Of a DNA stretch of 64,000 bases, positions 7,757 through 26,161 are shown piece by piece; the stretch's first letter is position 1; every line of letters begins with the position of its first letter. A program made the translations under genes and the position numbers. The stretch lies in the NCBI RefSeq assembly GCF_900142975.1, contig NZ_LT670848.1, positions 248,001-312,000 of the forward strand, given 5' to 3'. Source of the stretch: Salegentibacter salegens (lineage in GTDB: Bacteria; Bacteroidota; Bacteroidia; Flavobacteriales; Flavobacteriaceae). The notes beneath the pieces are model-generated. The model was not told the DNA's origin. It ran no database searches and saw only the letters and a list, made by a program, of their open reading frames with translations.

Positions 7757-8041
7757 GGACTCTATCCGGTAAACCCGGCTCAGGGAACTTATATGCTTGG
7801 TGCACCCTTATTCGAATGGGCTGAAATCAACCTGGAAAACGGGAAAATATTCCATATAAAAACTTCAAATTTCGCAAAGGAAAATCAATTTGTAGCAAGC
7901 GTAACTTTAAACGGTGAAGTCCTGGACCGAACTTTTATTACTCACGAAGAGATTATGAGTGGAGGGGAGCTGATTTTTGAAATGACAAATGAACCGGTAA
8001 ACACCAACTTGAAATCTCCTGAACCTAATAAGATATATTAA
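7757..8041 (+). pseudogene. 3' remnant of a fifth GH92 gene
   Basis: The frame translates to GLYPVNPAQGTYMLGAPLF and continues through NLENGKIFHIKT, TLNGEVL and GGELIFEMTNEPVN. This is the standard C-terminal end of GH92, closely matching residues about 670-750 of copy A. A TAA in the same frame lies at 7745-7747, only nine bases before homology begins, so about 650 residues including all catalytic motifs are missing. The ATG at 7793 could open an 82-codon frame, but it is simply the Met of TYMLG. The piece sits between two intact genes with no IS next to it. Confidence 0.88.
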
Positions 8042-8042
8042 T

Positions 8043-10370
8043 ATGAAATTGGTGAAAATTCTTCTGTTTTTTTTTGTGGGAATATTGATAAGCTGTGGTG
8101 AAAAAGAAAATCCATCTTTCACTAAGGAAGATCTAGTCTTGATCCCGGAACCAAAATTACTGGAAGTAAACAAAGGAAGTTTTAGGATAAATAGGGAGAC
8201 CAAATTGATAATTCCTGTAGATAGTTTAAAACCACTTACCAATATTTTAAATGACTTATTTGAGAAATCGGCTGGATTTAAAATGTCTGTTTCCGAAGAA
8301 TCTCCTGAAAATAATTTTATTCAGCTGCAAGAAGACTCAGAATTAGGAGAAGAGGCTTATAAGCTTTCGGCGACTACAGATCGGGTGATTTTAGAGGCAA
8401 ATTCCAGACTGGGATTTGTGTATGGTTTGGAAACCATAAGACAGTTACTACCCAAAGAAATAGAAAGCGCTTCAAAAATTTCAAACATAGACTGGCTAAT
8501 TCCTAATGTTGAAATTAAAGATGAGCCCCAATATTCTTACCGGGGCAATATGCTGGATGTTTCCCGTCATTTCTTTGAAAAGGATTATATCAAAAAGCAT
8601 ATTGACCGTATGGCTTTTTTAAAATTGAACACCTTGCATTTTCATTTGGTAGATGATCAGGGATGGAGGATTGAAATTAAAAAATATCCGAAATTAACCC
8701 AAGTTGGTGGTTTTAGGGTAGATCAGGAAGATAAACACTGGAATGCGAGAACCGAAAATGAACCAGAAGAAGAAGCAACTTTTGGCGGTTTTTATACCCA
8801 GGAAGATATTAAAGAAATTATGGCCTACGCCCGGGAAAAAGGAATTCGAATAATTCCTGAAATAGAAATGCCGGCGCATGTGATGAGTGCAATAGCAGCT
8901 TACCCCTGGCTTTCCTGTACAGAAGAACCTATAGCAGTACCATCTGGCGGTGTATGGCCAATTACAGAAATTTATTGCGCAGGAAAAGAATCTACTTTCG
9001 AATTTTTAGAAGACGTGCTTACCGAAGTAATGGAATTATTTCCTGGGAAATATATTCATGTGGGTGGTGATGAGGCTACCAAAACAAATTGGGAAAGCTG
9101 TCCTGATTGTCAGCGTAGGATAAGGGAAGAGGGCCTTGCCAACGAACACGAGCTGCAAAGCTATTTTATGAAACGTATCGAAAAGTTTCTAAATAAAAAT
9201 GGAAGGACCTTAATTGGATGGGACGAAATTTTGGAAGGTGGCCTGCCGGAAGAAGCAACCGTGATGAGCTGGCGCGGATTTGAAGGTGGCTGGGAAGCTT
9301 CAAAACAAGGTCATGATGTGATTATGACACCTACAAGTCATTTGTATTTTGACTATTACCAGGGAAGTCCAGACCATGAGCCTGTGGCATTTAATGCATT
9401 TACCCCGCTGCATCGGGTTTATGAATTTAGACCTGTCTTAGATTCCATGACGGTAGAGCAGAAGAAACATGTTCTTGGAGGGCAGGCAAACTTATGGTCA
9501 GAATATGTGCCAAATGAAGAACATTCTGAATATATGCTCTTTCCAAGACTTGCTGCGCTTTCTGAGGTGGTTTGGACCCCGGAAAACAAATTGAATTGGG
9601 AAGATTTTTCTGTTAGAATTCAGAAAATGATGGAGCGTTTTGATATTATGGGAATTAATTATGCAAGAAGTGCTTATGCTATTCAACCAGATTCAGAAAT
9701 TAATCTTGAAACAGGGGAAATTACCACTGCACTTAAAGCTGAATTTCCTAATGTAGAAATTAGATATGCCAGGGGGGATTCAGAATTAAGCGAAAATTCT
9801 GCCATTTATAAAGAACCGATTAAAATAGAATCAAGTTCTTGTTTAAAAGCCGCTGTTTTTAAAAATGGTGAAATTATGGGTCCCATTATGGATAATGATT
9901 TCCAATTTCATAAGGCGGCAGCAAAACCGGTTACTTATAAATACCCATATAATGATAATTATAAAGGAGGAGAAGAAACGGGACTTGTAGATGTACTAAG
10001 AGGAAGTAAATATTTTAAGGATGGCCGCTGGCAGGGATGGATTAATAATCCTGCAGTTATTACGATAAATCTTGAGAAACCAACGCAACTTAGTGAGGTG
10101 GTAGTTGGCAGTCTTGAAGAGCAGGGAACCGGCATTTATTTTCCACAAAAAATTAAAGTAGAAATTTCTGAAGACGGAAAAACTTTTGAAAAAGTTGGAG
10201 AAATAACACGTGAATTTCAGAATAATTCAAGTGCGAAAATTGAGAATTTTAGTGTTGAATTTGATACACAAAATAATATAGAATTTGTTCGGGTAACTGT
10301 CGAGCCTCTGGAGAATAATCCAAAAGGCGGCGGATCATGGTTATTTTTAGATGAAATTCAGGTAAAATAG
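8043..10370 (+). CDS. GH20 beta-N-acetylhexosaminidase, lipoprotein
   Basis: Retaining, substrate-assisted exo-hexosaminidase, 775 residues, with lipobox LISC (Cys18). Domains in order: GH20b N-terminal domain (about 30-160, starting LIPEPKLLEVNKGSF); GH20 barrel (about 165-520) with GNMLDVSRHFFEKDYI, LHFHLVDDQGWRIEI and the catalytic pair Asp343-Glu344 in HVGGDEATK; then a C-terminal F5/8-type C (CBM32-like) domain of about 130 residues, ending FVRVTVEPL...LFLDEIQVK. It would remove terminal GlcNAc from antennae or cores of N-glycans. It begins two bases after the GH92 remnant stop and ends six bases before the next GH92, so it is in the same operon. Confidence 0.93.
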   Translation: MKLVKILLFFFVGILISCGEKENPSFTKEDLVLIPEPKLLEVNKGSFRINRETKLIIPVDSLKPLTNILNDLFEKSAGFKMSVSEESPENNFIQLQEDSELGEEAYKLSATTDRVILEANSRLGFVYGLETIRQLLPKEIESASKISNIDWLIPNVEIKDEPQYSYRGNMLDVSRHFFEKDYIKKHIDRMAFLKLNTLHFHLVDDQGWRIEIKKYPKLTQVGGFRVDQEDKHWNARTENEPEEEATFGGFYTQEDIKEIMAYAREKGIRIIPEIEMPAHVMSAIAAYPWLSCTEEPIAVPSGGVWPITEIYCAGKESTFEFLEDVLTEVMELFPGKYIHVGGDEATKTNWESCPDCQRRIREEGLANEHELQSYFMKRIEKFLNKNGRTLIGWDEILEGGLPEEATVMSWRGFEGGWEASKQGHDVIMTPTSHLYFDYYQGSPDHEPVAFNAFTPLHRVYEFRPVLDSMTVEQKKHVLGGQANLWSEYVPNEEHSEYMLFPRLAALSEVVWTPENKLNWEDFSVRIQKMMERFDIMGINYARSAYAIQPDSEINLETGEITTALKAEFPNVEIRYARGDSELSENSAIYKEPIKIESSSCLKAAVFKNGEIMGPIMDNDFQFHKAAAKPVTYKYPYNDNYKGGEETGLVDVLRGSKYFKDGRWQGWINNPAVITINLEKPTQLSEVVVGSLEEQGTGIYFPQKIKVEISEDGKTFEKVGEITREFQNNSSAKIENFSVEFDTQNNIEFVRVTVEPLENNPKGGGSWLFLDEIQVK

Positions 10371-10375
10371 AAAAT

Positions 10376-12625
10376 ATGGGATCAGTGTTAAAAGTTGTTT
10401 TTTCAGGATTATTGATTTTAGTTTCATTGAAAATAACTGCGCAGGATTTTGATCCTGTAAATTATGTAAATCCGTTTATCGGCACTTCAAATTACGGGGC
10501 GACAAACCCAGGTGCTATTGCTCCAAGGGGGATGGCAAGTGTTTCGCCTTTTAATGTTGCGGGAAGAATTGACCTTAACCCTTTAGAAAAAGACAGCCAG
10601 TGGTTGTCTAATCCTTATGTGTATGAAAATACTTTTTTAACCGGATTCAGCCATGTAAATATGAGCGGTGTGGGATGTCCAGACCTGGGGGTTATCATCA
10701 GCATGCCTACCACAGGAGCATTAGAAACGAATCACGTAAAATACGGTAGCACTTATTCTGAAGAAACAGCAAAAGCCGGATACTATTCGACAAATTTGAA
10801 TAAATATGATGTGAAAGTTGAAGCGACCGCCAGCACCAGAACAGGGGTTACACGGTATTCGTTTCCGGCAGGAAAATCCAACATTTTATTGAATTTAGGT
10901 TTGGGCTTAACCAACGAGCAGGGTGCTATGGCGCATGTAGTTTCCCCTACCGAGATCGAAGGGATGCGAATGATAGGAAGCTTCTGTTATAATAATGCTA
11001 AAGCAGCTTATCCGGTTTATTTTGTTGCAAAATTTTCTAAACCTGCTGATAATTTTGGGGTCTGGAAAACACCTTATAAATATGAAGGAGAAGAAGCGCA
11101 ATGGATGACTTACAATGGCAAAACCCGTATTAAGGAGGGATTTTCGCGAGAAGTAGTTGGGGACAGCATTGGAGCCTACATGACTTACGATTTTAGTGAG
11201 CCACAACAAGTGGAAGTTAAGATTGGAGTTTCTTATGTAAGCATGGAAAATGCGAGGGAAAACTTAGAAAAAGAAGTAGGAGATTCAACTTTTGAAGAAG
11301 TATATGCGCAAACAAAGGAAGAATGGAAAAAGAAATTGCGGGTTGTAGAGGTTGAAGGGGGCACTGAAGATGAAAAAACCATTTTCTATACCGCTTTATA
11401 TCATACTCAGATTCATCCTAATATATTGAATGACGTTAATGGTGAATACCCTGAAGTCGCTACAGGAAAAATTGGCAAAACCGAAGGGACACGATATACC
11501 ACTTTTTCCCTTTGGGATACTTATAGAAATTATCATCAATTAATGAGTTTGCTTTATCCACGGGAGCAAATAGAGATGGTGAAATCTATGCTTGAAATGT
11601 ACGATGAGAACGGTTGGTTACCAAAATGGGAGTTAAATTCAACTGAAACATTTACTATGGTTGGTGATCCTGCGGCAATTGTTTTAGCTGATACCTATTT
11701 ACGGGGACTTACTGATTTTAATGTGGATAAAGCTTATAAGGCCATGCTAAAAAGTGCTACTCAGATTGAAGAAAATCCTCTACGGCCCGGCCTTGAAGAA
11801 TATTTAAAAAATGGCTATGTAAGTGTAGATATGGGAGTGCCCGGTCCTGTTTCTGTTACCCAAGAATATAATGCTGCTGATTATGCAATTGCATTATTGG
11901 CGAAAGAGTTAGGGAAAAAAGAAGATCATGAAGTATTTAAAGAACGATCGATTTCTTATAGAAAGCTATATAATTCAGATTCAAAGTTTCTTCAACCTAA
12001 ACATATAAACGGAAACTGGCTGGAAGGTTTTGATCCTTTGGCCGGTGCAAATTTCACCAAAAATCCTGGATTTATTGAGGGCAATGCCTGGCAATATCTT
12101 TTTATGCTTTCGCACGATGCAGAGGGATTAATGCAACGAATGGGTGGAAAAGTGGCTTACGAGAAGAAATTGGATGCTGTTTTTAATGAAGGACAATTTG
12201 ATATGGCAAACGAACCCGATTTTGCTTATCCATACCTGTATAATTTTATTCCCGGAAGTGAGCATAAAGCTCAAAAAAGGGTCCAAGAGTTATTAAAAGG
12301 ATATTATAAAAATAGTCCCGATGGTTTGCCGGGCAATGACGATACTGGTACGATGAGTGCCTGGGCAGTATATAGTATGATGGGTTTTTATCCACTAGTG
12401 CCAGCTGAACCTACTTACTCCTTAACGGCACCAATTTTTGATAAAATTGATATTAAATTAAATACAGATTTCTATCCCCGGGAACGCCTTTTAATAAGAA
12501 AACAAGAAGCTTCTATGAATAAGGAAGGCGGAGAAATATTTCTTGATAATAATCCAATTAATACCTTCTTTATTAACCATGATGCTTTAATTAACGCTAA
12601 TGAACTATTATTTATTGAAGAATAG
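10376..12625 (+). CDS. GH92 alpha-mannosidase, secreted (copy B, divergent)
   Basis: GH92 protein of 749 residues with a Sec signal peptide ending ITAQ (residue about 23) and no lipobox, so probably periplasmic. The family opening is altered to YVNPFIGTSNYGATNPGA, where copies A and D have GHTYPGA. The acid region is IEGNAWQYLF and the acidic pair is GNDDTGTMSAW, with Thr in place of the usual Gln. The region aligned with HGNEPSHH reads MANEPDFAYPYLYN. These changes suggest a linkage preference different from copies A and D. Catalytic acids appear intact. It is the last gene before the SusD remnant and the IS256 element. Confidence 0.92.
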   Translation: MGSVLKVVFSGLLILVSLKITAQDFDPVNYVNPFIGTSNYGATNPGAIAPRGMASVSPFNVAGRIDLNPLEKDSQWLSNPYVYENTFLTGFSHVNMSGVGCPDLGVIISMPTTGALETNHVKYGSTYSEETAKAGYYSTNLNKYDVKVEATASTRTGVTRYSFPAGKSNILLNLGLGLTNEQGAMAHVVSPTEIEGMRMIGSFCYNNAKAAYPVYFVAKFSKPADNFGVWKTPYKYEGEEAQWMTYNGKTRIKEGFSREVVGDSIGAYMTYDFSEPQQVEVKIGVSYVSMENARENLEKEVGDSTFEEVYAQTKEEWKKKLRVVEVEGGTEDEKTIFYTALYHTQIHPNILNDVNGEYPEVATGKIGKTEGTRYTTFSLWDTYRNYHQLMSLLYPREQIEMVKSMLEMYDENGWLPKWELNSTETFTMVGDPAAIVLADTYLRGLTDFNVDKAYKAMLKSATQIEENPLRPGLEEYLKNGYVSVDMGVPGPVSVTQEYNAADYAIALLAKELGKKEDHEVFKERSISYRKLYNSDSKFLQPKHINGNWLEGFDPLAGANFTKNPGFIEGNAWQYLFMLSHDAEGLMQRMGGKVAYEKKLDAVFNEGQFDMANEPDFAYPYLYNFIPGSEHKAQKRVQELLKGYYKNSPDGLPGNDDTGTMSAWAVYSMMGFYPLVPAEPTYSLTAPIFDKIDIKLNTDFYPRERLLIRKQEASMNKEGGEIFLDNNPINTFFINHDALINANELLFIEE

Positions 12626-12675: not shown

Positions 12676-12828
12676 AACAAGGGAAATGTTACCAACGGAA
12701 CAATTCCCAGAAGATTAACTTACATGACTTCAGAACAATCAACTAATGCGGAAAATTACAATGTGGCTATCCAATCTTAGGGACCAGATTTACTAACCAC
12801 TAGAATATGGTGAGATGTTGAACAATAA
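12676..12828 (+). pseudogene. 3' remnant of a SusD/RagB gene
   Basis: The frame reads NGTIPRRLTYMTSEQSTN, then ENYNVAIQS-stop-GPDLLTTRIW-stop-DVEQ-stop. This matches the C-terminus of SusD-like lipoproteins, which commonly end in PxRLxYPTSEQxxN and then LTTRIWWD; the first stop follows AIQS and the second replaces the second Trp of WWD. Only about 50 codons are recognisable and two stops interrupt them. The upstream 50 bases give a loosely SusD-like frame without firm homology. It implies that a second SusC/SusD pair once stood between copy B and the GH3 gene. Confidence 0.75.
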
Positions 12829-13006: not shown

Positions 13007-13310
13007 GGGAGTGTTAGCTCAACTCTGTCTGCTTCTTCTCCCGGGGGTACCCCCGGGAGAAGAAAATTTTAGTTTTTCGTTTCATTGGTGGCTAAGTCCA
13101 ACTCTAGCCGACCTTCAAATTTAATAGCTAATTGTTGAACTACCAAACCCCAGTTCTGCAGTGGGGCGTTCCATTTCTTTTCAATTCTTCTGGTAGCTAG
13201 GTAAACCAGCTTCAATAGTGCCATATCATTGGTAAAAGCGCCTTTGGTCTTGGTTACTTTTCTTACCTGCCGGTGAAAAGCCTCTACGGCATTTGTGGTG
13301 TATATGAGTT
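13007..13310. repeat. 304-bp tandem duplicate of the IS256 end
   Basis: These 304 bases are repeated without any difference that I can see directly next to themselves at 13311-13614. The unit contains the outer inverted repeat of the IS, the long palindrome and the last about 80 codons of the transposase (minus strand). It therefore looks like a second, truncated copy of the same IS end in direct orientation. It could come from slippage, unequal recombination, or two insertions followed by deletion. Confidence 0.9.
13033..13064. terminator. Perfect 32-bp palindrome, copy 1
   Basis: A perfect inverted repeat from TTCTTCTCCCGGGGG through the centre GTAC to the matching arm. It is extremely GC rich against a low-GC background. 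It lies in the truncated IS copy and is identical to the one at 13337-13368. On the minus strand it follows the transposase stop and could terminate transcription or block read-through into the IS. Confidence 0.7.
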
Positions 13311-13336
13311 GGGAGTGTTAGCTCAACTCTGTCTGC

Positions 13337-13368
13337 TTCTTCTCCCGGGGGTACCCCCGGGAGAAGAA
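13337..13368 (-). terminator. Perfect 32-bp palindrome after the transposase gene
   Basis: The second copy of the GC-rich palindrome, placed four bases beyond the transposase stop codon on the minus strand. With the flanking A/T tract (AAAATTTTAG on the plus strand) it would form a very stable hairpin at the 3' end of the transposase mRNA. Confidence 0.7.
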
Positions 13369-13372
13369 AATT

Positions 13373-14611
13373 TTAGTTTTTCGTTTCATTGGTGGCTAAG
13401 TCCAACTCTAGCCGACCTTCAAATTTAATAGCTAATTGTTGAACTACCAAACCCCAGTTCTGCAGTGGGGCGTTCCATTTCTTTTCAATTCTTCTGGTAG
13501 CTAGGTAAACCAGCTTCAATAGTGCCATATCATTGGTAAAAGCGCCTTTGGTCTTGGTTACTTTTCTTACCTGCCGGTGAAAAGCCTCTACGGCATTTGT
13601 GGTGTATATGAGTTTTCTAATGGGTGCGGTATATTCAAAATAAGCACTCAATCGGTCCCAGTTATCATTCCAGGAACGGATCACTATGGGATATCTTTTG
13701 CCCCATTTTTCTTCCAGATCCAGTAAAGCCGATTCAGCCTGGTCTTTGGTGTCAGCCTTGTACACCAGTTTAAGGTCTTTCATAAAATCTTTTTGATCCT
13801 TACTGGCCACATACTTCATACTATTGCGGATCTGGTGGACAATACATAGCTGAATATCAGTCTTGGGATAAACAGAATGAATGGCTTCACTAAAGCCCGT
13901 AAGATTATCCGTACAGGCAATCAGAATATCTTTTAAGCCACGGTTGTTTAATTGGGTCAGCACCTGAAGCCAAAAATTGGCCCCTTCACTTTCCGAGATA
14001 TACATACCCAGCACTTCCTTTCTTCCAGCTTTATTTATTCCTAAAATATTATACAAGGCCTTGTGCTTTACTTTGCCTTCTTCGCGTACCTTGAAGTGCA
14101 TCGCGTCGAGCCATAGGATGCAATATACCGGCTCCAAGGGGCGATCCTGCCATTCCTTAACCTTGGGAATCACCCGGTCCGTAATATCACTTAGAACGTG
14201 TGTGGATATCTTGGAATCATACATTTCCTCTATATGAGCTGAGATATCCCGCAGGCTATTGCCCATCCCGTACATGCCTATAATCTGCTTTTCTAAATTA
14301 TCGGCCAGGATACGCTGGCGTTTCGCTACGATCTCCGGCTCAAAGGTACTGTTACGATCCTGGGGCGTGTTAATGGTGACGTCCCCTTGGCTGCTCTTTA
14401 GGGTCTTTTTGCCTTTGCCATTACGCTTATTACCTGCTTTTGAGCCTTTTTCTTCATCGGAAAGGTGCGAAGACATTTCTGCTTCCAGGGCCTCTTCCAT
14501 AAACTCCCTAAGCATTGGAGCAAAAGCGCCGTTTTTGCCGGTTAGGGATTCTCCTGATAAAAATTGTTTTAATGCTTTTTCCTTTAATTCCTTAATCTCT
14601 TCTTGTGTCAT
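13373..14611 (-). CDS. IS256-family (mutator) transposase
   Basis: Intact DDE transposase of 412 residues. The three catalytic acids are visible: Asp in ILWLDAMHFK (about residue 169), Asp in ACTDNLTGFSEAI (about 235) and Glu in TTNAVEAFHRQVRK (about 343). The family helix motif IVHQIRNSMKYV follows the second Asp. The N-terminal part has the usual AEMSSHLSDEEKG segment and a basic KRNGKGKKTLK stretch for DNA binding. No frameshift or internal stop is present, so the element may still be active. It runs against the direction of the surrounding PUL genes. Confidence 0.95.
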   Translation of the reverse strand: MTQEEIKELKEKALKQFLSGESLTGKNGAFAPMLREFMEEALEAEMSSHLSDEEKGSKAGNKRNGKGKKTLKSSQGDVTINTPQDRNSTFEPEIVAKRQRILADNLEKQIIGMYGMGNSLRDISAHIEEMYDSKISTHVLSDITDRVIPKVKEWQDRPLEPVYCILWLDAMHFKVREEGKVKHKALYNILGINKAGRKEVLGMYISESEGANFWLQVLTQLNNRGLKDILIACTDNLTGFSEAIHSVYPKTDIQLCIVHQIRNSMKYVASKDQKDFMKDLKLVYKADTKDQAESALLDLEEKWGKRYPIVIRSWNDNWDRLSAYFEYTAPIRKLIYTTNAVEAFHRQVRKVTKTKGAFTNDMALLKLVYLATRRIEKKWNAPLQNWGLVVQQLAIKFEGRLELDLATNETKN

Positions 14612-14709
14612 AATCTAGTCTAAAAATTTTAATTTAATTTTCAAAGTCTAGACAGACTTGAGATTACACCCTCTGAAAACCGGCCGGTTTTCTTTTTAAA
14701 ATAAAATTG

Positions 14710-17097
14710 ATGAAAAAAATTTGCATTTGTTTTTTACTTATTTCTAATGTTCTGCTAAGTCAGGAGCTAAAAAATGCGGCTTATAAAGATGCATCTTTAA
14801 GTGTGGAAGCACGAGTAGATGATCTTTTAGCTCTAATGACCTTAGAGGAGAAGATAGGTCAGCTCACGACTCCACTTGGTTGGAAGATGTATACAAAGAG
14901 TAGGAATAAAGCAGTTATTAGTGAGCTTTATAAAAAAGAAATTAAAACCCGGCATATCGGCGGTTTGTGGGGATTGCTTAGGGCAGACCCCTGGACGCAA
15001 AAAACACTGGAAACCGGCCTTCACCCCAAAGAAGCGGCTAAAATCACGAATGAGATCCAAAAATATGTAATGGAGAACAGTCGTCTGGGAATTCCTCTCT
15101 TGCTGGAAGAAGAAGCCATGCATGGTCATATGGCCGTTGGGACTACCGTTTTCCCAACCGCAATTGGTCAGGCAAGCACCTGGAATCCCGATCTCATTAA
15201 GAAAATGGCAGAAGCTATAGCCGAAGAAATAAGAGCACAGGGTGCAAATGTGGGTTATGGTCCCATAGTAGATTTGGCAAGAGATCCTAGATGGTCCCGG
15301 GTAGAAGAAACATTTGGCGAAGATCCTTACCTAATTTCAGAAATGGGAAAATCTATAATTTCCGGATTTCAGGGAAACACAGCAGAAGACCTTAGAAATG
15401 GAAAGCACGTGGCTGCTACTTTAAAACATTTTGCCGCGTATGGAGTTTCAGAAGGAGGGCATAATGGCGGCGCGGTTTATATAGGTGAACGAGATTTATT
15501 CCAGAATTTTATGTATCCGGTGAAGGAAGCGGTGGATCTGGGAATCCTTTCCATTATGACGGCATATAGTTCTATTGATGGAATCCCAAGTACAGCCCAC
15601 AAAAAATTACTCACGAATACTTTGAGAGAAGATTGGGGATTTGAGGGCTTTGTGATTTCAGATCTTGGGAGTATTGAAGGACTTCTGGGAAGCCACCATA
15701 TTGTTGCTAATGAGGAAGATGCCGCGGCAGTTGCTATGAATGCCGGTGTAGATGCAGATCTTGGAGGAAATGGTTTTGATGATGCTCTAATGAGTGCTGT
15801 AAAAGCAGATAAAGTTTCTGAAGATAGAATAGATGAAGCAGTAAGAAGAGTGCTTGGGGTAAAATTTAAATTAGGACTTTTTGATAATCCCTATGTTGAT
15901 GTTGAAAATGCGGGAAGCGTTGTTCGAAATCCAGATCATATAGAACTGGCTAGGGAAGTCGCTCTACAGTCGGTGACTATGCTAAAAAACGAAAATAAGC
16001 TTTTGCCGTTAAGTAAGAATCTTAAAAATATCGCGGTAATCGGTTCTAATGCCGATATGCAATATAACCAGTTGGGAGATTATACGGCACCTCAGGCAAA
16101 AGATAATATCGTTACTTTTCTGGAAGGAATTCAGAATAAAATGCCACAGGCAAACATTCGGTATGTAAAGGGAACCGCCGTACGTGATACCACTCAGACT
16201 AACATACCGGCAGCTATAGAGGCAGCCAAAAGCGCTGAAGTTGCCATAGTTGTTTTAGGAGGTTCCAGTGCGCGGGATTTCAAAACAGAATATCAGGAAA
16301 CTGGAGCAGCAATGGTGTCTTCTTCAGAAGATGAAATTTTAAGCGATATGGAAAGCGGTGAAGGTTACGATCGCTCAACCTTACAATTAATGGGGAAACA
16401 ACTGGAATTATTACAGGCCGTTGTCGCTACAGGTACCCCAACGGTTTTAGTTCTTATTAAAGGCAGGCCCTTATTGCTAAACTGGTCTTCAGAAAATGCC
16501 CCTGCTATTCTGGATGCATGGTATCCGGGCCAGGAAGGTGGAAATGCCATTGCCGATGTGCTGTTCGGGGATTTTAATCCTGCAGGGAGATTGCCGGTTT
16601 CAGTTCCAAAATCTGTAGGGCAGTTGCCCGTTTATTATAATCACTGGGCTCCGGAACGCAGGGATTATGTAGAAATAGATGCTAAACCATTATATCCTTT
16701 TGGTTACGGATTAAGTTATTCAGAATTTGAATATTCAGATTTAAAGGTATCTGTAGAAGCTAAGGGCGTCAATACTAAAGTGAATCTGAGTTTAAAAGTT
16801 AAGAATATCAGCGATAAAGATGGAGATGAGGTGGTACAGCTGTATTTAAGGGATATGGTGAGTAGTGTACTTAGCCCCGTGAAGCAATTAAGAGGCTTTG
16901 AACGGGTTTCAATCAAATCTGGCGAAACTAAGACCATAAATTTTGAAATCCTTCCGAAAGAATTATCCCTGTTTAATGTGGATATGGAGCAAGTAGCAGA
17001 ATCAGGAGAATTTAAAGTAATGATAGGAGCTTCTTCTGAAGATATTAGGTTGGAAACTACTTTTGAACTATCAGAAAATATAACTATTAATAAATAA
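14710..17097 (+). CDS. GH3 beta-glycosidase, secreted
   Basis: GH3 enzyme of 795 residues. I chose the ATG at 14710 over the in-frame TTG just before it because it gives a compact signal peptide (KKICICFLLISNVLLSQ). Domain order: GH3 barrel (about 25-370), alpha/beta sandwich (about 400-620), fibronectin III-like domain (about 680-760). The nucleophile is Asp318 in VISDLGSIEG. GH3 covers beta-glucosidases, xylosidases and N-acetylglucosaminidases; this three-domain form favours beta-glucoside or beta-xyloside substrates, so its role in an N-glycan locus is open. The IS256 end lies about 37 bases upstream, so expression may now depend on the IS. GH29 follows after 12 bases. Confidence 0.9.
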   Translation: MKKICICFLLISNVLLSQELKNAAYKDASLSVEARVDDLLALMTLEEKIGQLTTPLGWKMYTKSRNKAVISELYKKEIKTRHIGGLWGLLRADPWTQKTLETGLHPKEAAKITNEIQKYVMENSRLGIPLLLEEEAMHGHMAVGTTVFPTAIGQASTWNPDLIKKMAEAIAEEIRAQGANVGYGPIVDLARDPRWSRVEETFGEDPYLISEMGKSIISGFQGNTAEDLRNGKHVAATLKHFAAYGVSEGGHNGGAVYIGERDLFQNFMYPVKEAVDLGILSIMTAYSSIDGIPSTAHKKLLTNTLREDWGFEGFVISDLGSIEGLLGSHHIVANEEDAAAVAMNAGVDADLGGNGFDDALMSAVKADKVSEDRIDEAVRRVLGVKFKLGLFDNPYVDVENAGSVVRNPDHIELAREVALQSVTMLKNENKLLPLSKNLKNIAVIGSNADMQYNQLGDYTAPQAKDNIVTFLEGIQNKMPQANIRYVKGTAVRDTTQTNIPAAIEAAKSAEVAIVVLGGSSARDFKTEYQETGAAMVSSSEDEILSDMESGEGYDRSTLQLMGKQLELLQAVVATGTPTVLVLIKGRPLLLNWSSENAPAILDAWYPGQEGGNAIADVLFGDFNPAGRLPVSVPKSVGQLPVYYNHWAPERRDYVEIDAKPLYPFGYGLSYSEFEYSDLKVSVEAKGVNTKVNLSLKVKNISDKDGDEVVQLYLRDMVSSVLSPVKQLRGFERVSIKSGETKTINFEILPKELSLFNVDMEQVAESGEFKVMIGASSEDIRLETTFELSENITINK

Positions 17098-17109: not shown

Positions 17110-18552
17110 ATGCTGAAAATCAATAAATTTAAAGCCGTTTTAGTTTTTGCCGTGGCGTTTACATTTCAGTTTATCCAGGCACAGGATGAGCAGGGTGTGC
17201 ACCAGAGATCTGAAGCCTATATGGCACCAACAGATCCTTTAGTGAAGGAAAAACTTTCAAAGTGGGAAAACCAGAAGTTTGGAATGTTGATCCACTGGGG
17301 AGTGTATTCGGTTCCGGGAATTATGGAATCCTGGAATTTATGTTCAGAGTCATGGATAGAGCGTGATAGCACTATTGCTTATAACGATTATAAGAAATGG
17401 TACTGGAACTTAGATAAAATTTTTAATCCGGTAAATTTTGATCCTGATAGCTGGGCAGATGCAGCTGAGACGGCCGGGATGAAATATATGGTTTTTACTA
17501 CGAAGCACCATGACGGTTTTAATATGTTCAATACCCAGCAAACAGATTATAAAATTACCAATGGCCCATTTCAAAATCATCCCAAAGCCAACGTAGCGAA
17601 ACATATTTTTGAAGCTTTTAGGAAAAAGGACTTTATGATTGGCGCGTATTTCTCAAAACCTGACTGGCATTCACAATATTTCTGGTGGGATAAATATGCC
17701 ACGCCAAATAGAAATGCAAACTACGACATTGAGAAATACGACTGGCGTTGGAATAAATTTAAAGAGTTTTCCTTCAACCAAATTAGCGAGTTGATGCACG
17801 ATTATGGCAGTATTGATATTCTTTGGTTAGATGGTGGCTGGATACGGCCAAAAGAAACGGTAAATGATGAGGTTAGGGCCTGGGGAGCTCCAATTCCTGA
17901 AGCCAGCCAGGAGATAGATATGCCAAAAATTGCAGAAATGGCAAGGGAAGCCCAGCCGGGGATAATCTTTGCAGATCGCACAGTGCACGGCCCTTACGAA
18001 AACTATCAAACCCCCGAGCGTAAAATTCCTGAAACCAAACTGGATAATCCCTGGGAAAGCAGTTTGCCATTGGGTAATAACTGGGGATATGTACCAAACG
18101 ATCCTTTTAAATCGCCTACCGCGGTTATTCATAATCTTATTGAAGTTGTTGCCAAAGGAGGAAACTTGCTCTTAGGAGTTGGTCCAAAGCCCGATGGAAC
18201 TTTACCTCTGGAAGTAATTGATAAACTGGAAAAGATAGGAAGCTGGTTGGATAAAAATGGGGAGGCTATTTACGATACTCACGCTATAGATAATTATCAG
18301 GATGGGAATATTTTTTTTACTGAAAAAGGGAATAAACAGTATACAATTGTAATTTTAGAAGAAGGAAAAGAAATTCCGAAATCAGTTAGCTGGGCTAAAA
18401 ATTTACCCTCAGAAAATGCAAAGATCAGATTACTTCAAACCGGTAAAAAAGTTGACTTTAAAATAAAGGGAGATAATGTAGAGATTAGGCTTCCTAAAGA
18501 GATTCGTTCGGCTAAGAACAGTGCAGCAATCGCTTTTTCCATAGAAAATTAG
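17110..18552 (+). CDS. GH29 alpha-L-fucosidase, secreted
   Basis: Retaining alpha-L-fucosidase of 480 residues with a signal peptide ending FIQAQ (about residue 25). Typical GH29 features: FGMLIHWGVYSVPG (about 57-70), YMVFTTKHHDGFNMF, and the nucleophile Asp241 in ILWLDGGW. No C-terminal binding module is present; a short beta domain ends the protein. It would remove core or antennary fucose from N-glycans. It lies 12 bases after GH3 and 6 bases before the second, broken GH29 gene, so the three were one transcription unit. Confidence 0.93.
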   Translation: MLKINKFKAVLVFAVAFTFQFIQAQDEQGVHQRSEAYMAPTDPLVKEKLSKWENQKFGMLIHWGVYSVPGIMESWNLCSESWIERDSTIAYNDYKKWYWNLDKIFNPVNFDPDSWADAAETAGMKYMVFTTKHHDGFNMFNTQQTDYKITNGPFQNHPKANVAKHIFEAFRKKDFMIGAYFSKPDWHSQYFWWDKYATPNRNANYDIEKYDWRWNKFKEFSFNQISELMHDYGSIDILWLDGGWIRPKETVNDEVRAWGAPIPEASQEIDMPKIAEMAREAQPGIIFADRTVHGPYENYQTPERKIPETKLDNPWESSLPLGNNWGYVPNDPFKSPTAVIHNLIEVVAKGGNLLLGVGPKPDGTLPLEVIDKLEKIGSWLDKNGEAIYDTHAIDNYQDGNIFFTEKGNKQYTIVILEEGKEIPKSVSWAKNLPSENAKIRLLQTGKKVDFKIKGDNVEIRLPKEIRSAKNSAAIAFSIEN

Positions 18553-18558: not shown

Positions 18559-20019
18559 ATGTTTAAGAAACTAAATAAAACAATAGCAGGTATTTTTATA
18601 GTAACACTGGCATTTTCCTGTGAGGAAAATAAACAGGTGGAAACGCCTGAAGCAGTGGGGCCAACACCTTCCCGGGAGCAACTGGACTGGCATAATATGG
18701 AAATGAATGCTTTTATTCATTTTACCACCAATACTTTTACAGATAAAGAATGGGGATATGGAGATGAATCCCCGGAGGTTTTTAATCCAAAAGATATCGA
18801 TATAGACCAATGGATGCAAACCTTGAAAAAAGCAGGTTTTAAAGGGGTGATCCTTACTGCCAAACACCACGATGGCTTTGCTTTGTATCCTTCGGATTAT
18901 ACTGAACATGATATAGCCAATTCTCCTTATAAGGATGGTGAAGGAGATTTGGTAAAAGAAGTTGCAGAATCTGCCCGGGAACACGGTTTGAAATTCGGAA
19001 TTTATCTTTCTCCCTGGGATAGAAACCGCGCCGATTATGGGGAGGCATCTTATATTGAATATTATAGAAATCAGCTTAAAGAGGTGTTTACTAACTATGG
19101 GAATATTTTTGAAATGTGGTTTGACGGCGCCAATGGCGGTGACGGTTATTACGGAGGAGCTGATGAAGAACGGCGTATAGACAAACAAAATTATTACGAC
19201 TGGCCAACAACTTTAGCGATGGTTGAAGAGATTCAACCATCAGTATTATTTTTTAGTGATGCCGGGCCCGATCTTCGTTGGGTAGGAAATGAAGACGGAA
19301 TTGGAGGAAAAACCAATTGGAATATGATTACGCCCGATACCCTTTATGCGGGGAAAGCAGGAATTGGTGATATTCTGTAAACCGGTTCTGAAGATGGAAC
19401 CGAATGGATCCCTGCAGAGGTTAATACTTCTATTCGTCCGGATTGGTTTTACCACGAAAATGAGGATTCACTGGTTAAAACTCCGCAAGAATTATTTCAG
19501 GTTTATCTTCAGTCTGTAGGGCGGGGATCAACCTTGTTACTTAATGTTCCACCAGATAAACGCGGACTTTTCCACGAGAATGATGTGGAGTCATTACTGG
19601 GAATGCGCAGAATTATTGATAGTGTATTTGCCAATAATTTAGCTAAAAATGCACAAGTTTCGGTAAGTTACTATCGGGGAGAAAATGAAAATTTTTCTGC
19701 CGAAAATTTGATCGATGGAGATCCTGAAACTTTCTGGGCAACCAATGATGATACTATCCAATCTTCTGTAGAAGTAGCATTTGAAAAAGAACAGGAGGTG
19801 AATTATGTTTTGCTTCAGGAGTATATAAAATTAGGACAGCGAATTATAAGCTTTAATGTGGAAGCAAAAGTAGATGGCGAATGGAAAGAGGTTGCTGAAG
19901 GTACAAGTATAGGATATAAGCGAATTCTTGAAATCCCTTCAGTAAAAACTAAGGCAATAAAGATTAATTTTAAAGATGCCAGGGCAAGCCCTGTAGTTTC
20001 TAATCTTGAAATTTATTAA
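18559..20019 (+). pseudogene. Second GH29 alpha-L-fucosidase, split by an in-frame stop
   Basis: A 486-codon GH29 gene with one TAA at 19378-19380 and no frame change. Upstream (273 codons): lipobox region FSC near residue 21, MNAFIHFTTNTFTDKEWGYG, ILTAKHHDGFALYPSDY and nucleophile Asp189 in EMWFDGANGGDG. Downstream in the same frame: TGSEDGTEWIPAEVNTSIRP, RPDWFYHENED and RGSTLLLNVPPDKRG, all standard GH29, then an F5/8-type C domain (about 365-486). The stop lies between catalytic core parts, so the shortened product would lack the end of the barrel. It differs in type from the upstream GH29 and is closer to the binding-module form. Confidence 0.9.
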
Positions 20020-20202: not shown

Positions 20203-20204
20203 GA

Positions 20205-20845
20205 ATGTCAAAGAGTAGACCTTACATCAAAGAAGCCTGTGTGGAAACTCTAGAACAGGCGATTGCTGCGGAAAAGAAAGGGCAGATCGTATAGAACTTT
20301 GCGCCGATTTACATCTTGAGGGATTAACACCACCAGAAGATTTAATCCTTAAGGTATTAAAAGAACTACATATTCCTATACGGGTGATGATTCGTCCCCA
20401 TGCCGGTAATTTTTTGTATTCTGAAGTAGAAATAATTGAGATGAAAAAAGCAATTATTACTTGTAAAAAATTGGGAGTAGAGGGAGTCGTTTTTGGAGCT
20501 TTAAAGGCGGATAAAACTCTGGATATTGATGTAATATCCATTTTAACCAAACTGGCGCTTCCTTTAAATGTGGTGATACATAAAGCTATAGATAATACTC
20601 CTGATCTATTAAAAGCACTCGAAGAATTGACAGGGATTAAAGGGATATCGGCCGTGCTTACTTCCGGGGGAGCTGAAACGGCATTTTTAGGACGTGGCGT
20701 TTTAAAAGAGATGATTAAAACCTCATCAAATAGAATTGAAATAATGCCGGCAGGAAAAATTAATTCCGAAAATCTTTCAGAAATACATAATTTATTGGGA
20801 GCTTCGGCTTATCACGGAAAACAGATTGTAGGAAAACTTAACTAA
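20205..20845 (+). pseudogene. cutC: cutC-like gene with a single-base frameshift
   Basis: CutC is a TIM-barrel protein once linked to copper homeostasis and often found in GlcNAc/N-glycan loci of Bacteroidota. From ATG 20205 the frame reads MSKSRPYIKEACVETLEQAI...AEKKG, matching the CutC start, then goes wrong. Adding one G to the GGG near 20280 restores ADRIELCADLHLEGLTPPED and joins the long 3' frame VMIRPHAGNFLYSEVEI, which runs to 20845. The loss is thus a 1-nt deletion in a short G run. The 3' part (from 20384) retains an open 153-codon frame but lacks the first barrel strands. Confidence 0.88.
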
Positions 20846-21039: not shown

Positions 21040-21505
21040 AATCATAGGTAAGCATGCACCTGGGTACGGTGGTGCTCCAGACAGGGAAGGGGGGTGACTT
21101 TAGATGTGTGCATTATGGCTCCTAATAGGAAAAGCGGTAGTGTGGCTTATCTTTAGGAGTCGCTCGAAAAGAGATGGAAGCCCCTCAGGTGGTGTTAGTA
21201 GAAGAAGGTGCCTAAAACTCCGCCATTTAAAATAGATTTAACCCAAAAAATCTTTTAAGTGAAAATTCCGATAACAGAGGGAAAATGGTTAAAAGATAAA
21301 GAGTATACATCTATAAAGAATATTTAAGGTGATAATACTATCGGGATCCTGTCCATAGATAGAAGTAGAGATGTCGCTGGGTAATGTTCTACTTGTCGGT
21401 TAGCCAATATAAAGATTCAAGTTTCATTTAAGGCTTTAAACAAATAAAGAGAAAAGGTTCCTATTGCAGATATTCACTGTTTTGATGTATTAAACAGTGA
21501 AGGCA
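21040..21505 (+). pseudogene. Degraded N4-(beta-GlcNAc)-L-asparaginase (glycosylasparaginase)
   Basis: Pieces in three frames line up in order with the Ntn-hydrolase that cleaves GlcNAc from Asn: GYGGAPDREG (21061 on), VTLDVCIM, KSGSVAYL, VARKEMEAPQVVLVEEGA, NPKNLLSE, WLKDKEYTSIKNI, then NTIGILSID, where the Thr is the autocatalytic nucleophile (normally HDTIG). After a GCSTCRLA piece (normally CTTSGLA) about 90 residues are missing before QVSFKALNK and the end. There are at least four stops or frame changes. The gene is beyond repair by a single mutation. It would have completed N-glycan breakdown at the Asn-GlcNAc link. Confidence 0.82.
21473..21501 (+). repeat. 10-bp inverted repeat (hairpin 1)
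   Basis: TTCACTGTTT at 21473-21482 pairs perfectly with AAACAGTGAA at 21492-21501, with a 9-base loop. It lies in the tail of the asparaginase remnant and directly before a second hairpin. No T run follows, so terminator function is doubtful. Confidence 0.5.
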
Positions 21506-21800: not shown

Positions 21801-23635
21801 TTACATTAGCTTTTGTTAAAAAATATAAATGTTAAGTATATGCGAAATATGGATTTAAAAGTCTAAAATTTAGCTTTTTTGAATATATATAGCTAAATAC
21901 TATTCGTTAAACAGTACTAAATCATTTTAGTTTTAATTATTCTAACCAAAAAAATTATTAAATGAAAACACAAATTCAGCCAGAGAAGGCCTCTGTTTTA
22001 AAGGAAAGGCACCGTTTATTCGGTTGGCAAGAGAAGAAGTTTTGTATTCTCTTCTTTTGCTTAATTATTTTTGGATTCGGTTATGCGTCTCCTGAATCAG
22101 TTACTTTAGTACAGCAACAAGTCGTAACAGGAACAGTTACAGATATAAACAACATGACTCTTCCGGGGGTGACCATCAGGGAAAAAGGAACTAATAATGG
22201 TACACAAACAGATTTTGATGGTAATTATTCTCTGGAGGTGAGTTCTACAGATGCTGTGCTTCAATTTTCTTATGTGGGGATGGAGACAATTGAAAGAAGT
22301 ATTGGAGAAAATCTTGTTGTAGATATAGTAATGGAACAGGATGCTGCGGCACTGGATGAAGTAGTACTTGTGGGTTATGGTACGCAGCAAAAATCAGATT
22401 TAACAGGTTCCATAGGTACTGTTAGTGGTGAAGATTTAACAAGAGGCCCGGTTTCAAATCCTTTACAGGGGTTGCAAGGTAGAGTAGCTGGTGTAAAAGT
22501 TGCTCTAAATTCTGGATCTCCGTCTTCCAGTCCTCGTGTACTTATAAGAGGAATTGGAACGGTTAACTCTTCTTCTGATCCACTTTATGTGGTGGATGGT
22601 GTAGTAATGGAAAGTATTCAGTTTTTAAACCCTAATGATATAGAGAACATGGAAGTGTTGAAGGATGCGTCTTCTACTGCTATTTATGGGGCTAGAGGGG
22701 CGAATGGAGTGGTGTTGATTAGTACAAAAAGAGGTGCTAGATCTGAAGGAACTACCATTGGATATGAGGCTTTTGTTAGTGTTGGAGTTTTACCCAAAAA
22801 ACTCGATCTATTAAACTCTAGTGAGTTTATGGAGGTTCTGGAACGTGGTTTTGATAATCATTCACAATACTCCGACTCTTCTATTCCGACTTTTACTGCA
22901 GATGATCCAAATCTTTTTGACGAAAATGGAAATCCTCTGTACGATACAGATTGGCAGGAAGAGGCTACACGAACAGCTGTGTCGCACAATCATCAACTCT
23001 CTTTTAGATCCAGAGGTGAAAATTCATCATTTGGAGCATTTCTTAACTATGCAGATATGCAGGGAATTATGCTTAACAGTTTTCAGGAACGGATCAGTGG
23101 AAAGATAGCGTATGATGCGGATCCTAAAGAATGGCTTTCTGTAGGTGTTAATTTGCTGGTAAACACCACGACTGAAAATGAGATTGAAGAAGGCGGTGGT
23201 GGTAATGTGCCAAGGAGGACTATTATCGAGATGCCGGCAATTTTTCCGGTAAGGTTTCCGGATGGAACATGGAGCAATACCGGTATGATTAGCGATCCGT
23301 ATGGTTTAGAGACAATGGCTAATCCTGTCCATGTGTTAGAAACGCAAGAGCGTGAGAGAGATAGAACGAAAATTTTCGGAAACTTGTTTACTGAATTTCA
23401 CATCCTTCCGAATTTGGATTTGAGAACACAAATAGGTTTTGATAGGAATGTTTTTAATGAGCAAAACTATAGTCCTACAGATCTTGCCAATATTTCTTCT
23501 CCTAATGGCTTTGCTTCACTGGGTAATAGTAGAAGTCTCTATTGGCAGCAGGAAAATTATTTAACTTATAACAATGACTTTGGTGATCATAGTATCAATG
23601 CTGTGGCCGGGTTAAGTTGGCAGCAAAGGACATCA

Positions 23636-23643
23636 AAAAACTT
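23636..23643. repeat. Target-site duplication, left copy (AAAAACTT)
   Basis: The 8-bp sequence AAAAACTT is found here and again at 24693-24700, flanking the IS. Eight bases is the usual duplication length for IS1595-type elements. Confidence 0.9.
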
Positions 23644-23646
23644 AGC

Positions 23647-23677
23647 TTTGTTCTAAGATGAATATGTCTTATATTTG
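23647..23677 (+). promoter_or_regulatory. Bacteroidota-type promoter of the IS transposase
   Basis: TTTG at 23647-23650 and TATATTTG at 23670-23677 are separated by 19 bases. This matches the -33 TTTG / -7 TAnnTTTG consensus of this phylum exactly. The -33 box lies inside the left inverted repeat. Transcription would start about 10 bases upstream of the transposase ATG at 23695. Confidence 0.7.
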
Positions 23678-23694
23678 TGTAAAACTATATAGAT

Positions 23695-24690
23695 ATGATA
23701 CCTTCAGATTTCAGGGATTTTTTCGTTAATAGTCCAGCGACTGTTCAACAAGAGATAGTGGCTTCGTTGCTATCATTGTCTTTGCAAGAAAGTGAAGTAA
23801 AGGACAGCAACGAGGCAAAAGCAGTTACCTGTCCTCATTGCTCAGAAAAGCGTGTTCGTGCCAATGGCAAGCTCAAAGGCGTTCAACGCTATGTTTGCAA
23901 TGGCTGTAAGAAGAATTTCAGTGAGACCACAGGTAAGTTTTGGTATAATATAAAAAAGAAAGAGAAGTTAAATCGGTATTTATACTGTTTGTTGTCGGGC
24001 TACAGTATCAGGAAAAGTGCAGAAGAGACGGAGATATCAATTCAAACGTCCTTTGATTGGAGACATAAATTGCTCACGTCATTTTCCAGTGTTTCGGTAG
24101 AAGAGTTTCAGGGCATAGTCGAAAGCGATGACCTGTTCTTTGCCTACTCAGAAAAAGGAGGACGTCATTTAGGTAGAAAACCGAAAATGCGAGGAGAAAA
24201 AGCAAGCAAAGCAGGCATAAGTGATGAAAAAGTAGCTGTAGTGGCAACTTGTGATAGATCTGGAAACAAAGACTTTAAAGTGGCCACAAGAGGTCGTATC
24301 AGTAAAGAGGATCTGAATAGAATACTTAAAGGGAAACTTGATAAAGCTGACGTACTCTGCAGCGACAGCCATAGAAGTTATGGTGCTTTTGCAAAAGCCA
24401 ACACAATTGCCCATAAAAAGTTCAACACCTCAAAGGGACAGCGAACCGTAGATAAGGTGTACCATGTCCAGAATGTAAACAATATGGATATGAGATTGAG
24501 AAAGTTCATGGATTCTTTCAATGGGGTAGCTACAAAATACTTACAGAATTACTTGAATTGGTTCTTGGTACTTGAAAAAATCAAGAACTCAACCAGTAAA
24601 ATGGCAACAGTTACAGCCATTGCCTTTGCTTCAAATAGCGCATGGTACGAGTACAAACAACAACTATTCAATATGCTAATTAGAACTTAG
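23695..24690 (+). CDS. IS1595-family (ISXO2-like) transposase
   Basis: Transposase of 331 residues, complete. It has an N-terminal zinc ribbon (CPHCSEKR at about residue 46 and CNGCKKNF at about 69), a helix-turn-helix region (SGYSIRKSAEETEIS), and an ISXO2-like DDE core: the first Asp in VESDDLFFAY, the second in VLCSDSHRSYGAF, then the C-terminal acidic/Asn region around FNGVATKYLQNYLNWF. All are normal for IS1595. There is no sign of decay. Confidence 0.92.
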   Translation: MIPSDFRDFFVNSPATVQQEIVASLLSLSLQESEVKDSNEAKAVTCPHCSEKRVRANGKLKGVQRYVCNGCKKNFSETTGKFWYNIKKKEKLNRYLYCLLSGYSIRKSAEETEISIQTSFDWRHKLLTSFSSVSVEEFQGIVESDDLFFAYSEKGGRHLGRKPKMRGEKASKAGISDEKVAVVATCDRSGNKDFKVATRGRISKEDLNRILKGKLDKADVLCSDSHRSYGAFAKANTIAHKKFNTSKGQRTVDKVYHVQNVNNMDMRLRKFMDSFNGVATKYLQNYLNWFLVLEKIKNSTSKMATVTAIAFASNSAWYEYKQQLFNMLIRT

Positions 24691-24692
24691 CC

Positions 24693-24700
24693 AAAAACTT
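24693..24700. repeat. Target-site duplication, right copy (AAAAACTT)
   Basis: Right-hand copy of the 8-bp duplication that brackets the IS1595-family element in susC. The susC frame resumes immediately after it with TTATGTGAGTGCT. Confidence 0.9.
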
Positions 24701-26161
24701 TTATGTGAGTGCTACAGGATTTTCTGATGATACGTTTAGTTATAATAGGATACAAGCAGCCAGCGAACCCGGAGCACCTGAATCCGGTTATGATGAATGG
24801 AGTATGAACTCATATTTCTTTAGGGGAAGTTATAATTATCTTCAAAAATATTTAGTCACGTTCACAGGTAGAATGGACGGTTCTTCAAGGTTTGGAGCAA
24901 ATAATAAGTATGGTTTTTTCCCATCAGTTGGTGTAGGGTATGTGTTATCTGAAGAGTCTTTTTGGGAAGATATGGAAAGTACTGTTAATTTATTAAAATT
25001 TAGAGCTAGTTATGGAATTACCGGAAACACCGAAATTCCAACATACCAATCCTTGGGAACCCTTTCTTCAGGAACTACCTTAATCAACGGCTCACGGGCG
25101 TCTATGAGTTATGTTAATAGGTTACCTAATCCAGATTTGGAATGGGAAAAAACAAAACAATTTGATATAGGACTTGATTTGGAATTGTTTAACCGGGGAT
25201 TAATAGTAAATCTGGATTATTATTACAAACTAACAGAGGATTTGCTCTTGGATCGTCCAATTCCAGCACATACTGGTTTCGGTTCGGTTAGAGATAATAT
25301 TGGTTCTGTATCAAATGAAGGTATTGAAGTTTTATTGCGAGCTTTTCCTGTTAGGACAGACGACTTTAGTTGGGAAAGTAATTTAAATTTTAGTTATAAT
25401 AAAAATACGATAGAGAGCTTAGGAGTGAACGATGAAGATATTTTTCCTGGCCCTAATTGGGTTTCAGGAAGCCAGACAATCTTACGTGTGGGAGAATCAC
25501 TTAGTTCTTTCTGGGGTTATGACCGACTTGGGACCTGGAACACAGATGAGGCAGAGGAAGCTGCTCTAGTAGGAGCTGTGCCTGGTGTGGCTAAGCGTAG
25601 CGAGGAGAAAAGAATAATTGGTAATGGAATTCCAGACTGGAATGGTTCTTTTATTAATAATTTTTATTTTAAAAATTTTGATTTAACAGTGGATCTGAAC
25701 TTTGTTGCGGGCGTTGATATTTTGCAACAAATGTTTCACTCATCAGAGGATAGAACTGGATTATCAAGTGGGTTGGCCAGTCAACTTAATGAAGCATGGA
25801 CGCCGGACAATCAGAATACAATGGTGCAGCAAATCAGAAATGCACCGTATTCGGGGCAGAATAGTGAAATTGACACCCGTTGGCTTGCTGATGGTTCGTT
25901 TCTTCGTGGGAATTTAATTGCTTTAGGATACACTTTGGATCCGCATCTAGTTTCAGATATGGGAATCGAATCACTTCGTGTATATGCCAATGTGCAAAAT
26001 GCTTTTGTGATTCATTCTGATGAATTTCGTGGCTATGATCCGGAAGCTTCTTCCTGGGGAGGGAATCAGTGGGGACAGAATATATTCTTTCACCAATATC
26101 CACGTCCTAGAACTTTTACATTAGGATTTAACGTGCATTTTTAAACAGAAATATTCAAAAA

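Follow-up and report, generated by a model that had tools for sequence, protein, structure and literature searches.

Loci for the use of high-mannose and N-glycans in Bacteroidota combine glycoside hydrolase (GH) families GH92, GH130 and GH20 with a SusC/SusD importer pair. Importers of this kind and the enzymes beside them are commonly treated as a single unit of inheritance, and it is easy to write off a cluster as dead if it has no intact SusC. Here we describe a locus of this type in the marine bacterium Salegentibacter salegens, lying in a stretch of 64,000 nucleotides (G000:C1:248001-312000, hereafter the window) of a genome of 4,009,999 bases on one contig, with a completeness of 99.99. 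The window holds the N-glycan/high-mannose enzyme set of GH92, GH130 and GH20, with GH29 in addition (Table 1), and it is like the known loci in its gene families, in the nearest solved structures of its GH130 (UhgbMP) and in the LytTR two-component regulator at one end. Unlike those loci, it has had its own SusC/SusD deleted, a second SusC is split by an insertion sequence (IS), and an importer pair orthologous to that of an equivalent cluster in sister species stands alone 2.8 Mb away. A first-pass annotation, which reported at least six damaged genes in 7757..26144, had read the locus as one in progressive decay. As a first reading, decay of a single cluster is reasonable, but it oversimplifies, because the damage is mostly recent and falls partly on genes with stand-ins, and because the enzyme core is constrained. 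The reading we favor, at a probability of about 0.5, is that a mosaic enzyme set has repeatedly become uncoupled from the importer beside it, with uptake provided in trans by the orphan pair.

According to this reading, the high-mannose N-glycan utilisation locus in the window would be a mosaic with enzymes still under selection. A deletion has removed the locus's own SusC/SusD importer, and several accessory genes have been lost as well, mostly recently and amid active IS elements. For two of the losses there are possible stand-ins: at 2.24 Mb an asparaginase paralogue, and at 3.06 Mb the orphan SusC/SusD. The orphan pair would be left over from a resident form of this cluster that no longer has its enzymes at that site. 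The likely arrangement would be that the orphan pair imports glycan fragments and the window enzymes trim them. We infer that this pair takes up the same substrate and serves the window enzyme set, and that this redundancy permitted the loss of the local importer.

We compared 15 Salegentibacter genomes, including the window genome (G000). The nearest named relative at the locus is S. salinarum DSM 23400 (G009; locus on G009:C21), with a GH20 that is 89% identical. Between GH92b and GH3, both S. salinarum and G011 carry SusC and SusD, the S. salinarum SusC being in two frames, and what the window retains at this place is the 3' end of SusD, 46-48 codons interrupted by one stop and fused to the spacer downstream of GH92b. 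Since S. salinarum has both genes in this gap, the SusD tail is the scar of a deletion in which the cluster lost its SusC and the greater part of SusD. Deletion mediated by IS256 was ruled out, as the junction lies outside the IS and there is no IS end there.

The first-pass annotation had taken another gene, the IS-split SusC2 (21962-26144), for the importer of the cluster. SusC2 is interrupted by an IS1595-family element with an 8-bp duplication (23636-23643 and 24693-24700); the element ends and the duplication were read by eye. Its orthologue in G011 is a single open frame of 1040 amino acids (aa), 78-84% identical, and adjoins SusD2 and a GMC oxidoreductase gene rather than lying between GH92b and GH3. 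Because that orthologue stands beside the GMC oxidoreductase gene, we assign SusC2 to a second importer pair, and the cluster's own pair is the deleted one. The annotation's view of the insertion as recent fared better, given the intact duplication and an element whose transposase is identical in 22 copies. The enzyme set has no adjacent intact SusC/SusD pair: its own is gone except for the SusD tail, and the SusC of the second is split. Phase variation of SusC by slippage was ruled out as well, as no long repeat was seen at either of the two frameshifts.

When the genus was searched with the SusC that lies beside GH92b in G011 (type B, SusC-B; E <= 1e-150), the window genome gave only a 39% homologue at 3,063,724, here called SusC-A. 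Together with SusD-A it forms the orphan pair (G000:C1:3063712-3068514; 1029 and 566 aa), flanked by an AraC-type regulator gene and an SLC13-like gene, amid housekeeping-looking genes (the names SLC13-like, groEL, hpt-like and adk-like were assigned by eye). The SLC13-like gene adjoining the importer consists of two open reading frames (ORFs) in G007 (L177) and G008 (L211). At the site of the orphan pair, G006 carries GH92a-SSF-GH130-CBM9-GHL10-GH92-GH20-GH92-GH92b directly before the same SusC/SusD (90% identical), and G007 has the same order from GH130 onward, with SusC/SusD 92-93% identical to the orphan pair. G004, G005 and G008 agree in the fetched parts, and G003 carries a reduced enzyme set. 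The enzymes precede a SusC/SusD 90-94% identical to the orphan pair in G004-G008 (5/5 fetched, four of them seen in part). This equivalent locus, beside groEL and the SLC13-like gene, is like the window, as far as it was seen, in its enzyme families and their order, and differs from it in lying at another chromosomal place, in a GH20 that is just 56-59% identical and in an importer that is in the cluster and intact.

In the window genome, S. salinarum and G011, the pair lies between the same flanking genes without enzymes, and each of these genomes has a single GH92b match, at the other locus. The spacer 5' of the orphan SusC aligns with the GH92b-SusC spacer of the in-cluster copies, and a degenerate match to the 3' end of GH92b lies at the colinear place in the window genome and S. 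salinarum (reached by 5 and 1 of 300 simple shuffles). Because of the homologous spacer and the degenerate GH92b end, we suggest that the enzymes once stood before the orphan SusC. In G011 the GH92b 3'-end match is at another place, not the colinear one (37/300 shuffles), and the gap there has a response-regulator match (E 6.5e-4) that is weak, fitting a former enzyme site without being strong.

SusC-A is full length and without stops in 9/9 genomes that match at E <= 1e-250 (of 15; short remnants would escape). The ratio omega of nonsynonymous (dN) to synonymous (dS) divergence is 0.034, 0.039 and 0.033 for the three orphan copies of SusC-A and 0.027-0.049 for the in-cluster copies (G003-G008), beside 0.024-0.045 for DNA polymerase I where dS is unsaturated. 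SusD-A gives 0.026-0.053 in 9/10 pairs, the other being saturated. Judged by these ratios, the orphan pair is as constrained as its in-cluster orthologues. DNA polymerase I served for pairwise distances only. All three genomes with an orphan SusC-A have the enzyme set elsewhere, and the 3/15 genomes without GH92b are also without SusC-A. A search for LytTR sites, as a sign of shared control of the orphan importer, gave few and scattered matches. Import and the Asn-GlcNAc end of the pathway had been described as lost; such losses do not follow, because an importer pair orthologous to that of the equivalent cluster is intact elsewhere in the genome, as is an asparaginase paralogue. The paralogue (at 2,244,416) is 70% identical to the copy at the G011 locus and differs from its S. 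salinarum counterpart by a dN of 0.026 and a dS of 0.569.

GH92b was found in 12/15 genomes of the genus. In eight of these the adjacent SusC looks intact, namely in G001 (of its own type), G003-G008 (type A) and G011 (type B), and in four it is missing or broken: deleted in the window genome, frameshifted in S. salinarum and G012, and absent in G002. G002 has the enzyme set near groEL (L207, L208; G002:C18) with no adjacent SusC/SusD, the converse of the orphan importer. In 3/4 Salegentibacter with the B-type cluster, the SusC of that type is broken or missing. Outside the genus, 34/35 close relatives have no in-frame stop in SusC-B, and the remaining one, G018, has one TAA; the difference from the genus (p = 0.0017) is indicative only, as the counts are few and the genomes are related by descent. 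For this count we searched 397 genomes and took 34 matches at E <= 1e-280 plus G088 (67% identity), omitting weaker second matches (46-48%); two candidates were scored per genome, and orthology was judged by sequence match, not gene order. The Zunongwangia locus (L006-L008) is like the window in its GH20 (75-77% identical) and in the B-type SusC after GH92b, and unlike it in an intact importer (1030-1092 aa) and the presence of the further GH92 (748 aa in L006).

All six damaged genes of the first-pass annotation were found, with corrections, and the genes it had called intact (four GH92, GH20, GH130 and one GH29) are intact by Pfam, as are GH3, SSF and the CBM9-like and GHL10-like genes. In the GH92 tail, an ORF at 7793-8041 covers positions 400-463 of 464 of the Pfam GH92 catalytic domain, and codons are open over 7769-8038. 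A GH92 gene stands at this site in the Zunongwangia, Leeuwenhoekiella and Lutibacter loci and in G006 and G007; the tail is shorter in S. salinarum, and none was found at the same place in G011 or G012. The frame of GH29b is open in S. salinarum and G011 (486 aa in each), as is that of cutC (213 and 217 aa). We searched between GH29b and cutC for a remnant of another gene and found no convincing match. The asparaginase (PF01112) remnant has several stops and gaps; the gene is intact in G011 and G012 and was not detected at the corresponding place in S. salinarum. The comparison with the locus of related strains, which the first-pass annotation had proposed as a check, confirms the lesions and supports the decay reading only in part. 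The two single-base lesions, in GH29b and cutC, are known from the assembly consensus alone, and next to the cutC frameshift there is a short base run. We consider it very unlikely that these two are assembly or consensus errors, given the single contig and the completeness, and errors of this kind cannot explain the SusC/SusD deletion, the GH92 deletion, the asparaginase remnant or the IS insertion with its duplication.

Are the lesions concentrated in the locus? Relative to S. salinarum, 2/13 cluster genes are broken against 2/125 control genes, and the Fisher p of 0.044 flatters the difference, because the locus was picked for looking broken and there is a single control stretch. That stretch is 141 kb syntenic with S. 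salinarum (window coordinates 42,764-184,368), with 125 S. salinarum genes that have a counterpart. A gene was counted if open in S. salinarum and broken in the window genome, alike for cluster and control. This rule is blind to 4/6 lesions, so Poisson values on their clustering, which come out far smaller, are biased and were not relied on. It flagged eight ORFs, two in the cluster (GH29b and cutC) and six in the control, of which inspection kept two (166474 and 246519) and set aside four: 149940 is two adjacent complete genes here and fused in S. salinarum, 213844 and 216595 have stops that precede the likely start, and 254372 is at the edge of the fetched stretch. The fused frame (G009:C21:149940-151052; L072, L073 region) joins an hpt-like and an adk-like gene. 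The two broken control genes are a SusC split by IS256 and a 188-aa ORF with a stop. This SusC (G000:C1:421923-426473, or 173923-178473 in window coordinates) is open in S. salinarum, at 1060 aa.

IS elements are known to form pseudogenes during IS expansion, and the damage could be collateral of an IS burst and drift across the genome, unrelated to N-glycan use. There are at least 41 full-length, near-identical IS256 copies (40 of 92 candidates were scored, so there may be more) and 22 IS1595 copies with identical transposase, plus one distant match; we take these numbers to mark IS activity genome-wide. As in other cases of IS expansion, the copies are numerous and near-identical and an 8-bp duplication is present. 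The locus has 2 IS in 18.4 kb against 0.29 expected, and the control SusC is likewise split by IS256. Such an origin is nonetheless unlikely, since just 1/6 broken genes was broken by IS insertion, with no IS at the lesion for the SusC/SusD deletion, the nonsense codon, the frameshift or the GH92 deletion, and the control has only the two broken genes. The idea that decay is special to this locus is left with a weak excess over one control stretch, set against IS elements that abound throughout the genome.

The annotation had also placed the lesions on a scale from old to recent. They do differ in kind and age, and the asparaginase is old, but the other five show little or no drift. With G011 as outgroup, dN on the window branch is 0.032 and 0.034 for the two GH29b pieces (S. 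salinarum branch 0.022 and 0.032) and 0.042 for cutC (S. salinarum branch 0.073); the SusC2 3' piece was omitted, as only 24 codons aligned and these were badly cut. The SusD tail (46 codons) has a dN of 0.009 and a dS of 0.353 against S. salinarum. For the GH92 tail, dN to Leeuwenhoekiella is 0.357, compared with 0.361 for the intact Zunongwangia gene and 0.282 for the intact G006 gene. Joint inheritance of the GH92 loss with S. salinarum was rejected, as all 90 codons of the tail are open and its dN matches that of the intact gene in Zunongwangia, though the intact G006 copy is lower; the window deletion is probably young and separate from that of S. salinarum. Mismatches of the asparaginase remnant at codon positions 1/2/3 are 0.25/0.15/0.46 against G011 and 0.30/0.15/0.46 against G012, while the intact G011 and G012 genes differ by 0.13/0.04/0.46, so positions 1 and 2 exceed this baseline by 0.11-0.17; the remnant has five gaps versus one. 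On these divergence values we regard the asparaginase as the one old lesion and the other five as having drifted little or not at all since the split from S. salinarum.

The intact enzymes are under purifying selection. In the nine intact cluster genes, omega against S. salinarum is 0.032-0.136 and dS 0.30-0.71; in 102 control genes of at least 150 aa the median omega is 0.045 and the maximum 0.163, with values low throughout. Window-branch dN of GH92b, GH20, GH3 and GH29a is 0.019-0.028, with no excess.

Several observations weigh against uncoupling with uptake in trans. Omega is higher in the cluster than in the control (Mann-Whitney p = 0.006), which fits mild relaxation, though it may reflect faster evolution of glycoside hydrolases in general, and selection on the enzymes has little power to separate decay from retention because most lesions are recent. 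Neither GH29b (E <= 1e-60) nor cutC (E <= 1e-10) has another close copy in the genome beyond its own broken one. SusC-A is ~39% identical to SusC-B, and at that level of identity the two need not share a substrate. The co-occurrence of SusC-A and GH92b (9/12 versus 0/3 genomes, p = 0.044) rests mostly on six genomes in which they are neighbors, and one of the negatives is 61% complete. An element upstream of SusC-A is altered in the three orphans, but likewise in G004 and G006. G012 has a frameshifted SusC-B and no SusC-A match; this genome appears to be metagenome-assembled, and the lesion, within a short run of G, may be an assembly error. Finally, in G011 an intact SusC-B coexists with the orphan SusC-A, so the orphan state there is independent of SusC-B loss.

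The main rival is plain decay, in which N-glycan use is no longer under selection in this strain, lesions accrue and the remaining enzymes have simply not yet been struck. An 18-kb stretch with one old and five young lesions, and the excess over the control, would fit it, as would the raised omega of the cluster, the lack of backups for GH29b and cutC, and a window-branch dN in the GH29b pieces slightly above that of the four intact enzymes. We consider it somewhat unlikely, as those four enzymes show no acceleration on the window branch, the orphan importer and the asparaginase paralogue are intact and constrained, and four GH92, GH20, GH130, GH3 and GH29a are intact.

The mosaic part of the favored reading draws on gene trees, all midpoint-rooted. 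In the GH20 tree, the window, S. salinarum and G011 group with Zunongwangia and Leeuwenhoekiella (support 0.991), G012 is next to this group, and G001, G006 and G007 fall outside. The SSF and GH92a trees place the window with G001, S. salinarum and G012 (the GH92a rows for G007, Lut71, Joost and Aureib are paralogues, the orthologue lying outside the fetched DNA), and the GH130 and CBM9 trees keep the sampled Salegentibacter together (support 0.735 and 0.933). In G001 the left half of the locus is 83-96% identical to the window and the right half is of another type. Because the trees differ and the G001 locus is half-and-half, parts of the locus have probably been exchanged, partly across genera. 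We tentatively propose, as a possibility somewhat short of even, that in Salegentibacter an enzyme set of mixed and partly foreign origin and SusC/SusD evolve as separable modules, with the resident leftover importer being used and the set's own importer repeatedly lost.

An orphan importer with unrelaxed constraint thus co-occurs with a distant enzyme set that has no importer, and the 4/12 GH92b-bearing genomes with a missing or broken local importer provide a natural test for importers that work in trans. The locus is also a warning that decay should not be called from the sequence of a locus alone: the pathway is not clearly decaying, and may have been rearranged rather than abandoned.

Table 1. 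Features of the N-glycan locus, in window coordinates.
Feature	Position	Strand	Remarks
Histidine kinase gene, 5' end	1..275	-	His_kinase in G009 orthologue
GH92 alpha-mannosidase a (GH92a), intact	386..2665	+	Pfam
Sodium:solute symporter (SSF), intact	2665..4542	+	Pfam
GH130 phosphorylase, intact	4544..5518	+	Pfam; nearest solved structures UhgbMP (4udg), 5ayd
CBM9-like protein, intact	5515..6585	+	Pfam
GHL10-like putative glycoside hydrolase, intact	6606..7724	+	Pfam
3' remnant of further GH92, 90 open codons	7769..8041	+	
GH20 hexosaminidase, intact	8043..10370	+	Pfam
GH92 alpha-mannosidase b (GH92b), intact	10376..12625	+	Pfam
SusC/SusD deletion scar: SusD tail, one in-frame stop (12778-12780)	12681..12825	+	
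Partial IS256-family copy, 304 bp of one end, precedes full copy	13007..13310	-	
IS256-family element, full	13311..14673	-	At least 41 near-identical copies in the genome; no target duplication seen here
GH3, intact	14710..17097	+	Pfam
GH29 a (GH29a), intact	17110..18552	+	Pfam
GH29 b (GH29b), nonsense codon 19378-19380	18559..20019	+	Two pieces by Pfam
cutC, frameshift near 20280	20205..20845	+	Partial CutC by Pfam
Asparaginase-family (PF01112) remnant, old	21060..21450 (approx.)	+	
SusC2 5' part, ends with first copy of target duplication	21962..23643	+	Pfam
IS1595-family element	23644..24692	+	Transposase 23695-24690, identical in 22 genomic copies
SusC2 3' part, starts with second copy of target duplication	24693..26144	+	No Pfam match; identified via G011 orthologue
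SusD2, intact	26162..27733	+	Pfam

The histidine kinase gene and a LytTR response regulator (Response_reg + LytTR) just outside the window are divergent and lie upstream of the cluster. The best PDB sequence match of the GH130 is UhgbMP (4udg, E 1.8e-148), which we take to have mannosyl-GlcNAc phosphorylase-type specificity; NCBIfam equivalogs were under cut-off.

The 304-bp IS256 end piece abuts the full copy, and no target duplication was recognised around either, so that 13007-14673 looks like an IS inserted in or beside an IS, followed by an adjacent deletion. Just within the IS256 end, 3' of the transposase, there is a perfect palindrome of 32 bp, at 13033-13064 and again at 13337-13368. 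It recurs with other IS256 copies in the genome and is perhaps a terminator.

After SusD2, Pfam identifies GFO/IDH, 3-keto-disaccharide hydrolase, LacI, ROK, GMC, gluconate-2-dehydrogenase subunit 3, GH43, two GH92 and a major facilitator superfamily (MFS) transporter. The unit at 28162-42649, with GFO/IDH, 3-keto-disaccharide hydrolase, GMC oxidoreductase, gluconate-2-dehydrogenase subunit 3, GH43 and the two GH92, looks like one for oxidative (3-keto) glycoside breakdown. Much of this unit is upstream of the N-glycan genes in S. salinarum and downstream of them in the window.

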